Part shown: positions 5,822 to 24,595 of the stretch, piece after piece
Layout of the letters: the number at the start of each line of letters is the position of its first letter
How positions within the stretch are numbered: the stretch's first letter is position 1
The notes under the pieces: model-generated
What the model was told of the DNA's origin: nothing
Seen by the model: only the letters and a program-made list of their open reading frames with translations
Databases searched by the model: none
Translations under genes and position numbers: made by a program
DNA from: a virus
Virus record (IMG/VR): IMGVR_UViG_3300005541_000021
Location: 1 to 25,923 of that record
Length of the DNA: 25,923 nucleotides
Direction: 5' to 3' (one strand)

Positions 5822-6505
5822 ATGGCAGGCGTGAAAATAAGTGGATTACCCCCCGTACCGGTGGCTCCCGCATTAACAGATATTATCCCTGAGGTTCAGC
5901 CTCCTACAGGAGGAACAACCTATAAAGTAAGTTTTCAACAACTTTACAATTTATTTAGTTCAAATTCTGGAACAGTAAATACCGGATCAATTAATCAATT
6001 AGCTTATTATGCCGCCGCTGGAAATGCATTGAGCGGTGTAGGACCATTGACTAATGGTCAATTATTAATTGGATCAACGGGTGCACCTGCTGCTCCCGGA
6101 ACTATTAGTGCAGGTCCGGGCATTTCCGTGGCCAATGGTCCTGGAACTATTACGATTTCTGGCACCGGAAGTGGCATTGGATGGACGAATGTTACTGGGA
6201 CAACACAGCAAATGGTTGCGGATAGCGCCTATGTCGCCGATAACGCTGGCTTAGTAACGTTAACATTACCTGCTACCGCCGCCTTTGGGACGGCCATAGT
6301 GGTGTTAGGACGAGGAGCAGGTGGTTGGTCGATTGCTCAAAATTCTGGGCAAAATATTCAAGTGGGCTCTGTCTCATCGACTGTTGGTGCGAGTGGTTCT
6401 GTATCGTCAACCAATCAATGGGATTCTATTACCATGATTTGTGTAGCTGCAAATACGACATGGTCACAATATGGCGCCCCTCAAGGAAATTTGACAATAG
6501 TTTAA
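5822..6505 (+). CDS. Beta-rich phage tail fibre or spike protein
   Basis: 227 residues. AAAGGAG at 5806-5812 is 9 bases from this ATG; a nearer ATG at 5817 opens a frame of only five codons and was rejected. The N-terminus (MAGVKISGLPPVPVAPALTD) is typical of short phage fibre proteins that begin with a target-binding leader. A small-residue-rich segment (~80-125) follows. The C-terminal ~105 residues form a recurring phage module: TQQMVADSAYVADNAGLVTL, then LPATAAFGTAIVVLGRG, then a Trp-containing strand and INVQVG-like repeats. It has the same transcription direction and tight spacing as the Gly-rich gene that follows. Role inferred: part of the tail fibre or spike. Confidence 0.65.
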   Translation: MAGVKISGLPPVPVAPALTDIIPEVQPPTGGTTYKVSFQQLYNLFSSNSGTVNTGSINQLAYYAAAGNALSGVGPLTNGQLLIGSTGAPAAPGTISAGPGISVANGPGTITISGTGSGIGWTNVTGTTQQMVADSAYVADNAGLVTLTLPATAAFGTAIVVLGRGAGGWSIAQNSGQNIQVGSVSSTVGASGSVSSTNQWDSITMICVAANTTWSQYGAPQGNLTIV

Positions 6506-6517
6506 AAGGAATTAAAC

Positions 6518-7213
6518 ATGGCTACAAATAATGCTATTAATGCAACGCTACCCGTATTTGATAAATATACTGTTCAAATTTTTACAAGCGGAGGAACCTA
6601 TACTCCCACCACTGGCATGAAGTTTTGTAGGGTGAGGCTTGTAGGCGGAGGTGGTGGGACGGCAGGTTCGCCTGCAACGAGCGCAGTACAAGCTTCTTTT
6701 AGTTCAGGTGGTGGCGCAGGCGGTTACGCAGAATCAATATTATCCGCGGCGACTGTGGGAGCTTCTCAAACGATTACAATTGGTGCGGGTGGTACGGCTG
6801 GAACAAGTGCGCCGACAAATGGCGGCACTGGTGGAACGACTTCATTCGGTGCAATTTTAAGTGCTACTGGCGGTGTGGGTACTACTCAACAAAGCGCCTT
6901 GGCAAATACGACCATTAGCTTTGCAATTGGAGGCGCTGGTGGAAGTGGTAGCGGTGGAAATGTTTTAAATATCGTAGGGTCAAATGGTGGTTATGGTTTT
7001 ATCCTCGGTGCTAATGTGGCAGGCGGTATGGGTGGCGCTAGTTTGTTAGGAGGATCTATTAATAATTTAGGTAATGGATCTCCTGCGGCTGGTCAATCTG
7101 GCATTAGTTATGGTAGTGGTGGTTCTGGTAGCGCTAGTACAAATAGTGCAGGACAAGCGGGAGGCGCGGGATCATCGGGGATAGTAATTATTGAAGAATT
7201 TTGTAGTGTATAA
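6518..7213 (+). CDS. Glycine-rich phage tail protein
   Basis: 231 residues behind AAAGGAATTAAACATG. Residues ~15-45 (YTVQIFTSGGTYTPTTGMKF, then a VRLVGGGGG segment) match the start of the glycine-rich domain often found at the end of phage tail fibres. The rest is made of Gly/Ser/Ala-rich repeats (GGGAGGYAES, GGAGGSGSGG, GSGGSGSAS) ending in SGIVIIEEF, the usual closing strand of that domain. Such domains form thin polyglycine-II-like tips that contact the receptor. It is the last gene of the rightward tail cluster and is followed 5 bases later by a terminator. Confidence 0.75.
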   Translation: MATNNAINATLPVFDKYTVQIFTSGGTYTPTTGMKFCRVRLVGGGGGTAGSPATSAVQASFSSGGGAGGYAESILSAATVGASQTITIGAGGTAGTSAPTNGGTGGTTSFGAILSATGGVGTTQQSALANTTISFAIGGAGGSGSGGNVLNIVGSNGGYGFILGANVAGGMGGASLLGGSINNLGNGSPAAGQSGISYGSGGSGSASTNSAGQAGGAGSSGIVIIEEFCSV

Positions 7214-11758: not shown

Positions 11759-12117
11759 CAGTGCACCTTCTTTTCTGATTCTTCAAAAGATTCTTTAATT
11801 CCTTGCGAAATTAAGCTTACAAATTGAGAACGAGAATCATTAGCCATTTTTATCCTATATTCTTCTTCAGTTATAAATAAAAGATCATCGTAAATTCCTG
11901 TTTTCAATGGAATATCCGGATTAATGTTATCGGCAATGACTACGCATTTTAAATCTTGGTCTAAAGTTAAAAGATGACCTCCCTTTATTGTATCTCCATT
12001 TTTATCTACTACCATTAGATGGATATCTTCATGTTTATCACATTGAGATAATTTTACGTATAATTGTTTTTCGTCGTTAGACAACTTACTTTCTTCTGTC
12101 CATATTTTTAATTTCAT
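11758..12117 (-). CDS. Hypothetical 119-residue phage protein
   Basis: Coupled at both ends: ATG 12117 overlaps the upstream stop (TAATG) and its stop overlaps the SPFH start (ATGA). The sequence is acidic with an alternating hydrophobic pattern in the first 80 residues (LHLMVVDKNGDTIKGGHLLT, CVVIADN), suggesting a beta-rich domain, then a helical C-terminus. No signal peptide or motif. Strict coupling to the SPFH lipoprotein suggests related expression, but the function is unknown. Confidence 0.55.
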   Translation of the reverse strand: MKLKIWTEESKLSNDEKQLYVKLSQCDKHEDIHLMVVDKNGDTIKGGHLLTLDQDLKCVVIADNINPDIPLKTGIYDDLLFITEEEYRIKMANDSRSQFVSLISQGIKESFEESEKKVH

Positions 12118-12401
12118 TATTTGTCTTCTCCAAACATTTCATCAATAATTTTTTCAAATTGTTCCTTGCGTCTTTTCACTAATTCTAGTTCATCAATTGC
12201 ATCAATAATTTTATCGAAGTTAATCGGATATTCAGCCGCATATTCCTGGATCTTTTGTTCTTTCTCAGCGATTGTGCTATCTAACTTACAAGCCTCTAAC
12301 TCTCCTTTCTTACGCATCTCACGAGCACGCAACGGTGCCATTGTCTCATTGATCTTTTCTTTGGCTAAAACAAGTATGTCTTTGTATTTCATTAAGCTCA
12401 T
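12117..12401 (-). CDS. Predicted coiled-coil phage protein
   Basis: 94 residues with GAGGTGA 3-4 bases before ATG 12401. Almost wholly helical and highly charged: KEKINETMAPLRAREMRKKG, then CKLDSTIAEKEQKIQEYAAE, then a C-terminal helix ending in EMFGEDK. Heptad-like spacing suggests a dimeric coiled coil. No catalytic residues or membrane segment. It lies in the tightly overlapping leftward operon. Function unknown. Confidence 0.55.
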   Translation of the reverse strand: MSLMKYKDILVLAKEKINETMAPLRAREMRKKGELEACKLDSTIAEKEQKIQEYAAEYPINFDKIIDAIDELELVKRRKEQFEKIIDEMFGEDK

Positions 12402-12404
12402 GTG

Positions 12405-12620
12405 TCACCTCAATAGTAATAAAAGTTTATTGGATTTTTTTTCATCAGATAAAGGATGTAGTGGCGATTCTTTTATCTGGAGGGATTGCATTTGTTGAGC
12501 TAAACTCATTTGATTTAAATAATTATGATATTGACTCATTCCATTTTGTAATATCTCATGTGTATGACCGCAATAATAACTATTACATAAATGGCAATAA
12601 CAAGAGGGTTGATTACTCAT
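12405..12620 (-). CDS. Small Cys/His-rich protein, possible zinc binding
   Basis: 71 residues starting at 12620, where ATGA overlaps the stop of the Tad2-like gene; a TTG five codons upstream was rejected. Residues ~5-20 contain CYCHLCNSYYCGHTH: four Cys and several His within 15 residues, enough for a zinc knuckle. The rest is Gln/Met/Ser-rich with a Lys/Leu-rich end (KKSNKLLLLLR). No family recognised. Compact zinc proteins of this size in phage early regions often bind nucleic acid or host proteins, which here is inference. Confidence 0.5.
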   Translation of the reverse strand: MSNQPSCYCHLCNSYYCGHTHEILQNGMSQYHNYLNQMSLAQQMQSLQIKESPLHPLSDEKKSNKLLLLLR

Positions 12621-13021
12621 TCCATTATTTCCCAATCAATGGCTGAAAAATCATCAAAAGTAGGGTGATAGGTGTGCTCTGATAACATATACATTATTAG
12701 ATTATTTTCTCTGTCTAATTCAATGTAAGTTAATTTTGGCCAGCATTTTAACTTAACTTTAAATTTCTTTTTCAACATTTTTATAGCTGAAGGGAAATCA
12801 ATAACATCTTCCGATCCATAAACCATCCAATCGTCAGAAATAATTATGTCTGCATTGTAAGAAAAATAAACTGCTTCATGTCGATAACCTTTTATGCAAG
12901 TTACTTCTTCCCCTTCCGGAATAATAATAGTAGTCAATTTTATATGGGAGTGTTCTTTCCATGATTTTCTTCTGATTGGATGACCAGATCGTAATTCTTT
13001 TACAATTTCTTCAAAGTTCAT
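12617..13021 (-). CDS. Internally duplicated Tad2-like (DUF2829-like) protein
   Basis: 134 residues from ATG 13021, with GGAAAA upstream and 1 base after the previous stop; a longer in-frame start at 13051 lies inside that gene. Residues 1-70 follow the DUF2829 pattern: F3, L10, G13, R17-R18, W21, then ISDDW65. Residues 74-134 repeat it: F76, L83, V89, W94, then SAIDW130. F-to-W spacing is 18 in both halves and also in the clear DUF2829 gene at 24190. In that family, Tad2 binds the cyclic ADP-ribose signal of Thoeris defence. The duplicated domain is divergent, so an anti-defence role is a hypothesis. Coupled to the Cys/His-rich gene downstream. Confidence 0.5.
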   Translation of the reverse strand: MNFEEIVKELRSGHPIRRKSWKEHSHIKLTTIIIPEGEEVTCIKGYRHEAVYFSYNADIIISDDWMVYGSEDVIDFPSAIKMLKKKFKVKLKCWPKLTYIELDRENNLIMYMLSEHTYHPTFDDFSAIDWEIME

Positions 13022-13022
13022 A

Positions 13023-13409
13023 TTAATTTTCCGTTTGGTTTTCAAATGCACGAGACTTTAATTTGTTGTGTGGCATCTTTGTCTTTTTCTCAATGCCATA
13101 GATGTACTCTTCCCAAAAGATAGCAACATCAATAGGCATGCGATCATCACTGCTATCATTGGCAATTTTATTAACTTCTCGATGACTAACAAAGGCGGGT
13201 ACTTGGAAATCTTGTACGAGTTCAATAACATCATCTTTACACATGTCCCACCGTCTTTGTAACATATCAACGGTGAAACCTTTTCTTTTGTCTACTACTT
13301 CTGAATATTCTTCAATGATATTATTTTTGCTCATTTTACGAATGATAACCGGTACTTCAGCACCGGTTTGTTTATGCCTTACAATGTGAATGACATTCCC
13401 TTGCTTCAT
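13023..13409 (-). CDS. Phage protein with a helix-turn-helix-like segment
   Basis: 128 residues, AAGGAT 5 bases before ATG 13409. Residues ~45-75 (FTVDMLQRRWDMCKDDVIEL, then VQDFQVPAFVS) have the pattern of a MerR/excisionase-like winged helix: T-V-x-x-L-x-x-R-W, a Lys/Asp turn, a recognition helix, and the P-A-F strand. A charged C-terminal region contains AIFWEEYIYGI. It could be a DNA-binding regulator or directionality factor; the resemblance is moderate. Its start lies only 22 bases from the structured block at 13432-13675, so that RNA may act as its leader. Confidence 0.5.
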   Translation of the reverse strand: MKQGNVIHIVRHKQTGAEVPVIIRKMSKNNIIEEYSEVVDKRKGFTVDMLQRRWDMCKDDVIELVQDFQVPAFVSHREVNKIANDSSDDRMPIDVAIFWEEYIYGIEKKTKMPHNKLKSRAFENQTEN

Positions 13410-13431: not shown

Positions 13432-13675
13432 TGGCAATAGGTACGAATTGCACGTACTATGTATGCCCTTACGTTTGCAGGTATTTCACATTTTCAGATT
13501 AATACCACATACCAAGGTCTCAGTTATCGAACGGTCATTAGTATATCCGCCCTCGTGCTTGTCACTGTCCAAGCTGCTATTGCCATAATTTGGTGGCCTA
13601 CTTTCCCTAACTCTCACTGATTGTCGATACTCCCTTACGCAAAGTTATGTATCGCATAAGTATCATCGGCCACTA
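13432..13675 (-). ncRNA. Candidate structured RNA or long structured leader
   Basis: This gene-free block is about 42% G+C, clearly above its AT-rich neighbours. It has two domains closed by long-range helices. Domain A: TGGCAATAG (13432-13440) with CTATTGCCA (13577-13585), 9 bp. Inside it are GTACG/CGTAC (13441-13457, stacked directly on it), GTATG/CATAC (13461-13512) enclosing GGTATT/AATACC (13480-13506), and GCTTG/CAAGC (13557-13574). Domain B: GTGGCC (13593-13598) with GGCCAC (13668-13673). Inside it are CGATAC/GTATCG (13625-13654) and CTTACGC/GCATAAG (13634-13660), which overlap and so are alternatives or a pseudoknot. The second gains a G-U pair only if transcribed leftward. CGTAAGGG (leftward) occurs in both domains. 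It ends 12 bases before a ribosome binding site. Strand is likely but unproven. Confidence 0.55.
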
Positions 13676-13676
13676 T

Positions 13677-14168
13677 TTAAAATGGTACTAAATCAGAAAA
13701 TCCGTCATCTATTTTAACAGGTGCTTTCATTTCTTTTTCAATAAAATCTCTAACATCATTTTTAGCTGGCCACATATCATCGGTTCCATCATTTTTAGCC
13801 CGAGCTTTTTGTGTGTATATTTTGCATACCCCTAACTTATTCATGCATTTATTAAACTGAGTGTACATGTGACCTTTCTCATACAACTCTAATACGCCAA
13901 AGCTTTCCGCAAAGTTTCTGGTTCGATAAGACATTTTATTTCTTTCGCTCCAGAATAGGTTGGTAAATATACTACGTTCTCGACCTTCTTTATCCCATAT
14001 TTTTAATTTTATTTTAGTCATCATGTCGCCATTACTATCAGTAAGGGGACAGTGATTTTTATCCACATTGCTAAACTCAATCAATTCGCATGGATATTCC
14101 CCGTCCTCAATCAACGGGGGGTTACTCATGTCTTTCGCTTCTTGTTTAGTTAATGGTCTATAACTCAT
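13677..14168 (-). CDS. DUF669-like single-strand-binding partner of Sak4
   Basis: 163 residues, ATGA overlap with the Sak4 gene. The N-terminal half has IEDGEYPCELIEF and a beta-rich MTKIKLKIWDKEGRERSIF, consistent with an OB-like fold. The C-terminus is acidic and ends DDGFSDLVPF, like the D-x-I-P-F tip of SSB proteins that recruits partners. Phage DUF669 proteins are repeatedly found next to Sak4-type ATPases. It probably coats single-stranded DNA during annealing or replication. The gene is followed by the structured block at 13432-13675. Confidence 0.75.
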   Translation of the reverse strand: MSYRPLTKQEAKDMSNPPLIEDGEYPCELIEFSNVDKNHCPLTDSNGDMMTKIKLKIWDKEGRERSIFTNLFWSERNKMSYRTRNFAESFGVLELYEKGHMYTQFNKCMNKLGVCKIYTQKARAKNDGTDDMWPAKNDVRDFIEKEMKAPVKIDDGFSDLVPF

Positions 14169-24517: not shown

Positions 24518-24595
24518 GCAATCGTGGTCTAATGGAAAGATAGTAGCTCTGAACACGTTCATCTAAAGATATCGGTTCGATTCCGGTCGATTGTC
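24518..24595 (+). tRNA. tRNA-like element lacking a recognisable anticodon stem
   Basis: GCAATCG (24518-24524) pairs with CGATTGT (24588-24594) as a 7-bp acceptor (first pair G-U), then T8-G9. The D-arm is GTCT/AGAT with loop AATGGAA, containing GG. The T-arm is ATCGG, loop TTCGATT, CCGGT, near-perfect. Between them, 28 bases should hold an anticodon arm and variable loop, but no 5-bp stem with a 7-base loop forms. Only TGAA/TTCA around CACG pairs. CTCTGAA resembles a tRNA-Gln (CTG) loop without its stem. No CCA is encoded. It is either a degenerate tRNA or a tRNA-like structure. Confidence 0.5.

Follow-up and report, generated by a model that had tools for sequence, protein, structure and literature searches.

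What does a phage encode in a gap between two genes that appears rich in paired sequence? We addressed this question at positions 13432-13675 of the window (the whole stretch of DNA analyzed here, 25,923 nucleotides, which represents one IMG/VR virus record). Its neighbors are a DUF669-like gene (13677-14168, minus strand) and, as the next gene leftward, one at 13023-13409 (minus strand). A first-pass annotation had placed a two-domain structured RNA within this leftward operon, offering a riboswitch-like leader or a free RNA as its possible identity, and had named folding against shuffled controls on both strands and covariation among homologues as evidence that would bear on it. Two genes downstream of the RNA, at 12617-13051 (minus strand), the window also encodes a protein with a Tad2-like (Thoeris anti-defence 2-like) domain (Pfam E value, 7.8e-13).

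Folding of the single sequence by itself gave weak support for a predicted structure. The 301-nt minus strand had a mild advantage over its shuffles (z = -1.36) and domain B alone, as delimited below, reached a z of about -2.0, while the plus strand was no better than its shuffles (z = 0.23); the structured RNA reads leftward, on the minus strand. The annotation had recognized no known riboswitch, group I intron, or ribozyme core, and neither did we: neither domain matched Rfam at the gathering threshold, with riboswitches, group I introns, ribozymes, GOLLD, and ROOL included, and at E values up to 10 a snoRNA was the sole match, on the wrong strand (E = 4.8). The only tRNA called in the window by ARAGORN and Rfam was the phage's tRNA-Phe (GAA) gene at 24518-24595 (plus strand), far from the RNA; the gap RNA was not called. 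Nor did either call domain B as a tmRNA, which would combine tRNA-like ends with a tag reading frame. Against cultured phages, DNA similarity searches with the region returned chance matches only, two whole-element queries and one motif query (short, and therefore of low power) gave no convincing match, and the DUF669-like and HTH-like proteins on either side, used as protein queries, had no match. The family is undescribed in the literature we searched, which covered few subscription papers or preprints. Neither RNA matched a catalogued family, and the tRNA-like one is found again in dozens of environmental phages.

Relatives were gathered by way of the window's Sak4-like annealase, which led to 80 related viral contigs. 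When these contigs were compared with the gap sequence, several proved to share, downstream of the Sak4/DUF669 block, a short core of conserved sequence, and a scan of all viral contigs with this core (KCKTGGACAGTGACAMGM) yielded 102 stretches. The homologues define two elements within the gap, so that the two-domain structure originally proposed was borne out. The elements and their parts, in the direction of reading, are as follows.

13591-13673, minus strand: domain A, a conserved RNA module distinct from B, with GGCCACCA as its end; 25 distinct copies (UGGCCGANGAUA...AAUAGGCCACC)
13668-13673, minus strand: 5' strand of the A closing helix, GUGGCC, pairing with 13593-13598, as read from the sequence and its relatives
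13657-13660, minus strand: 5' strand of the A inner stem P2, CUUA, pairing with UAGG at 13606-13609; covaries
13591-13594, minus strand: ACCA, the 3' end of A, resembling a tRNA discriminator plus CCA in sequence
13432-13585, minus strand: domain B, the whole tRNA-like RNA with its insert; homologous chassis in about 75 phage contigs, with an 18-pair consensus and strong covariation
13577-13585, minus strand: 5' strand of the B acceptor-like helix, U-GGCAAUAG, pairing with 13432-13440; all 8 core pairs changed on both sides among 58 sequences
13575-13576, minus strand: 2-nt linker CA, in the place of tRNA positions 8-9; in relatives, CG in 66 of 74 and CA in 5
13557-13574, minus strand: D-arm-like hairpin, GCUUGGACAGUGACAAGC; near-invariant in relatives, with compensating stem variants
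13458-13556, minus strand: variable insert ("cargo"), 99 nt, in place of the anticodon arm and variable loop; without similarity to other inserts
13441-13457, minus strand: T-arm-like hairpin, GUACG-UGCAAUU-CGUAC; all 5 pairs covary
13432-13440, minus strand: 3' strand of the B acceptor-like helix, CUAUUGCC-A, running on from the 3' strand of the T-arm, as it does in tRNA

Domain B is thus ordered as an acceptor-like helix of 8 to 9 bp, a 2-nt linker, a D-arm-like hairpin, the insert, a T-arm, and the returning acceptor strand. Given that the acceptor, D-arm, and T-arm stand in tRNA order, we consider domain B to be tRNA-like. Its T-arm, with 5 bp and a 7-nt loop, runs into the acceptor strand without a linker, as the T-arm of a tRNA does; a full cloverleaf was not found, as the inserts contain no common anticodon arm and the tRNA models are silent.

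We examined the pairing in sequences chosen blind to it, taking every exact TGGACAGTGACA and the first TGC[AG]A[TA]T after it, which are the D-arm and T-loop motifs. At least 7 of the 8 acceptor positions were paired in 63 of 72 such cases, and the mean over 60 distinct cases was 7.18 of 8, compared to 4.05 after shuffling; 2000 shuffles never exceeded 4.78. We then aligned 58 motif-chosen cores, keeping in a few plainly wrong T-loop choices. In this alignment 94.1% of consensus cells were paired (70% when shuffled, 32-42% when slid), double changes occurred at 15 of the 18 consensus pairs, every acceptor and T-stem pair had changes on both sides, and the covariation score was 0.607, compared to 0.146 for shuffled and at most 0.107 for slid alignments. 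RNAalifold, unaided, returned the same 18 pairs and the same fold. Since the D hairpin served as the search key, its conservation is inflated; the acceptor and T stems lay outside the key. The homologues are decisive for two features of domain B, both on the minus strand: its long closing helix, which the first-pass annotation had drawn as a 9-bp TGGCAATAG/CTATTGCCA pairing, and the hairpin stacked on that helix, which is the T-arm. What the annotation had missed was the tRNA-likeness of B, along with the recurrence of both domains as separable modules in other phages.

The chassis varies in ways that preserve its form. The D-arm stem occurs in compensating variants (GCGUG/CACGC, UCGUG/CACGA, GCUUG/CAAGC, and GCAUG/CAUGC), and relaxed scans turned up the alternative D-arms GCGTTGACAGTGAAACGC, GCGTTCACGGTGAAACGC, and GCGTGGTTTAGTTGACACGC on the same chassis, as well as T-loops of the tRNA type (TTCGACT, TTCAATT). 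The T-loop is UGCAAUU in 59 of 74 relatives, the others having UGCGAUU, UGUAAUU, or the tRNA-type UUCGACU/UUCAAUU. Also recurrent are a CG linker, an A preceding the T stem, and TTAT at the end of the 5' leader. A 3' CCA is encoded by a minority of B copies and is rare except in arrays; it could be added after transcription.

The inserts, by comparison, are hypervariable. Their lengths range from 29 to 254 nt with a median of 88 (85 inserts, a few of the longest being nested double counts), and 67 of the 85 are unlike any other. The window's own insert resembles none of the others, including those of phages with clearly related Sak4 proteins. Inserts are slightly more stable than their own shuffles (mean z = -0.67, p = 2e-6) and have a G+C content of 44%, compared to 36% for their contigs, in AT-rich phages. 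Because the mean structural signal is modest, some inserts may be near-neutral filler. In at least four phages, inserts of one class have the same two ends while the hairpin between them changes; the core of this class is present in six contigs, each of which also has the B core hairpin nearby. The inserts of L071, L106, L115, and L143 are of the class GGAAGCAACGTAGCTGAGCCTTCTCCCCAGTGGAT...GTTCAGCAAAACTGGA, with GCTGA/TCAGC and CCAGT/ACTGG in pseudoknot order. Separately, L171 (1499-1595) and L183 (1660-1756) carry a B variant with the D-arm GCGTGGTTTAGTTGACACGC and a 41-nt insert that could form an anticodon-like arm plus a variable arm, and part of the family may therefore be tRNA in a stricter sense.

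Domain A, recognized by UGGCCGANGAUACU ... GGGAAAAUAGGCCACCA, presents a different picture. The GTGGCC/GGCCAC pairing predicted earlier is present on the minus strand, and covariation cannot test this closing helix because it is largely invariant among relatives. Covariation appeared instead in the inner stem P2, just inside a conserved internal loop: a mean of 3.32 of its 4 pairs formed, compared to 2.42 after shuffling, with 0 of 2000 shuffles reaching 3.32 and in this register only. Covariation among homologues was thus found in both domains, in the acceptor and T stems of B and in this inner stem of A. Other features that the first-pass annotation had listed fared less well. CGATAC/GTATCG is present on the minus strand, yet homologues do not support it as conserved, the GATAC stretch being a conserved element outside the inner stem; CTTATGC/GCGTAAG is likewise present, the covarying inner stem being CUUA/UAGG; and CGTAAGGG does occur twice but has no support from homologues as a conserved feature. 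The switch or pseudoknot built on such pairs falls away with their lack of conservation in relatives. At the 3' end, ACC is kept in nearly all relatives of A, ACC being part of the search pattern. In the window, L007, L096, L108, and L213, A immediately precedes B or a variant of B; it occurs alone in other contigs, and a further copy follows it in tandem in L096 and L209. Since A stands beside B in some contigs and alone or in tandem elsewhere, A and B are separate modules.

The RNA keeps company with genes read in its own direction in many different phages: of 77 cases flanked by a reading frame on either side, 53 had both frames co-directional with it. No protein partner was common to the B loci, the recurrent neighbor clusters being phage genes of particular lineages. 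Most copies of B have no recognizable tRNA beside them; the distance from B to an ARAGORN tRNA call is 7-9 nt in L119, L165, and L184 and 38 nt in L179. L119 holds an array of an RNA, B, tRNA-Gln, and B, in which CCA ends the first three units.

Taken at a probability of roughly 0.6, our preferred reading is that the gap encodes A and B, in that order, as a tandem pair of stable non-coding RNAs, and that the tRNA-like chassis of B displays a swappable cargo. A and B would be transcribed leftward together with the neighboring phage genes. B amounts to a tRNA fold minus its anticodon arm, with the acceptor-like helix, D-arm-like hairpin, and T-arm as conserved chassis and a swappable RNA insert where the anticodon and variable arms would be. 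The host enzymes that process tRNA (RNase P and 3' trimming) may cut the RNA from its transcript, after which the chassis would protect the excised RNA. Weighing against this, most B copies are without an encoded CCA, so that their 3' ends would depend on trimming or on CCA being added, and most have no recognizable tRNA beside them. The insert might then perform phage-specific work, perhaps by binding a host or defence factor, and this is the least certain step. A broader proposal, which we advance only tentatively and at well below even odds, is a modular phage RNA system in which one tRNA-like chassis, shared by many unrelated phages, carries non-homologous cargoes exchanged between lineages, each with a different host or defence target. 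The combination of a fixed chassis, proven by covariation, with a hypervariable insert opens tRNA-adjacent stable phage RNAs to model-based detection, comparison, and insert testing. Were the preferred reading to hold, the tRNA fold would be serving phages as a scaffold for display.

Alternatively, B may act as a decoy or inhibitor, a tRNA-like RNA that occupies host or defence enzymes acting on tRNA (anticodon nucleases, tRNA-cutting toxins) and so shields the real tRNAs during infection, with the insert tracking different enemies. Mimicry of tRNA with a fast-changing insert, the lack of a fixed protein partner, and the proximity of the Tad2-like gene would all suit such a role; enzymes that recognize the anticodon arm, however, would find no such arm in B, and we hold this reading to be possible but rather unlikely. 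Somewhat less likely again is that the fold serves as processing punctuation, merely marking a cut site between cistrons with the insert as filler. This would account for a conserved chassis around an unconserved insert and for the position of B between co-directional genes, with the next reading frame 23 nt away in the window, but not for inserts that are on average stabler than shuffles and shifted in G+C, for the insert class that keeps a common core around its changing hairpin, or for the several copies that sit in RNA arrays and not between genes.

Bacterial tRNA-Sec has an 8+5 bp acceptor/T stack, and domain B shares both this stack and the canonical tRNA order of acceptor, 2-nt linker, D-arm, and T-arm; it differs in its insert, which replaces the anticodon and variable arms, and in usually encoding no CCA. 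The family might consist of divergent true tRNAs (tRNA-Sec-like or allo-tRNA-like) that become aminoacylated and take part in decoding, and the L171/L183 variant insert does have two hairpins of suitable size. We regard this as improbable, given that the inserts, at 29-254 nt, contain no common anticodon arm and that neither ARAGORN nor the Rfam tRNA models call B. The riboswitch-like leader of the first-pass annotation, controlling the next gene, is the least probable reading, and very much so: the window RNA does end just before a ribosome binding site, but the genes downstream differ between phages, and copies occur in tandem and inside tRNA arrays. Its other option, a free RNA, was rightly offered.

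The closest precedent for the arrangement of A then B is found in T4, where RNA C and RNA D (species 1 and 2 RNAs) are adjacent small stable phage RNAs beside tRNAs (PMC3014915, PMC9697503) and their function is unknown (PMC3014915, PMC9697503, PMC12685909). In T4, the CACC(A) end of RNA D stands just ahead of RNA C, which itself closes with a T-arm (CCGGG-UUCGAAU-CCCGG) running directly into an acceptor-like strand. A and B nevertheless have no evident sequence homology to either: the acceptor and D-arm differ, and RNA C has a canonical T-loop and an imperfect end helix and is without the GGACAGUGA D-arm. RNA C as a direct homologue is not supported; only the general layout is in common. The bacterial Y RNA YrlA, a non-coding RNA that partners with Rsr, also mimics tRNA through D, T, and acceptor-like arms (PMC8394870). 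Domain B resembles it in these arms, whereas the ends of YrlA pair in a basal stem tethering Rsr/Ro60 and those of B form an acceptor helix; no TROVE (Ro) gene was found in the 26 virus records searched, on the phage side only. GOLLD and ROOL are phage non-coding RNAs that often lie near tRNA islands, with functions unknown (PMC12286853), but they are much larger and have other folds.

Among GTDB genomes there were six exact matches to a 20-mer, three of which fit the full descriptor (bins of Planctomycetota, Chloroflexi, and Legionella); in the one class sampled, the single match among 369 genomes was the genome on which the search was centered. Further RNA units were noted at some loci. The first unit of the L119 array (12115-12230, minus strand; GGAGCA...TGTTCCGCCA) precedes B and tRNA-Gln, with GTTTAT separating units. 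In L012, a unit just upstream of B (6480-6601; GGGATG...GCGGGTGAAATTCCCGTCATCCCACCA) has a T-arm, an acceptor strand, and ACCA, and in L038 a tRNA-Tyr-like RNA with an odd T-loop (TGAAATC) occupies the same slot after DUF669 (5880-5985).
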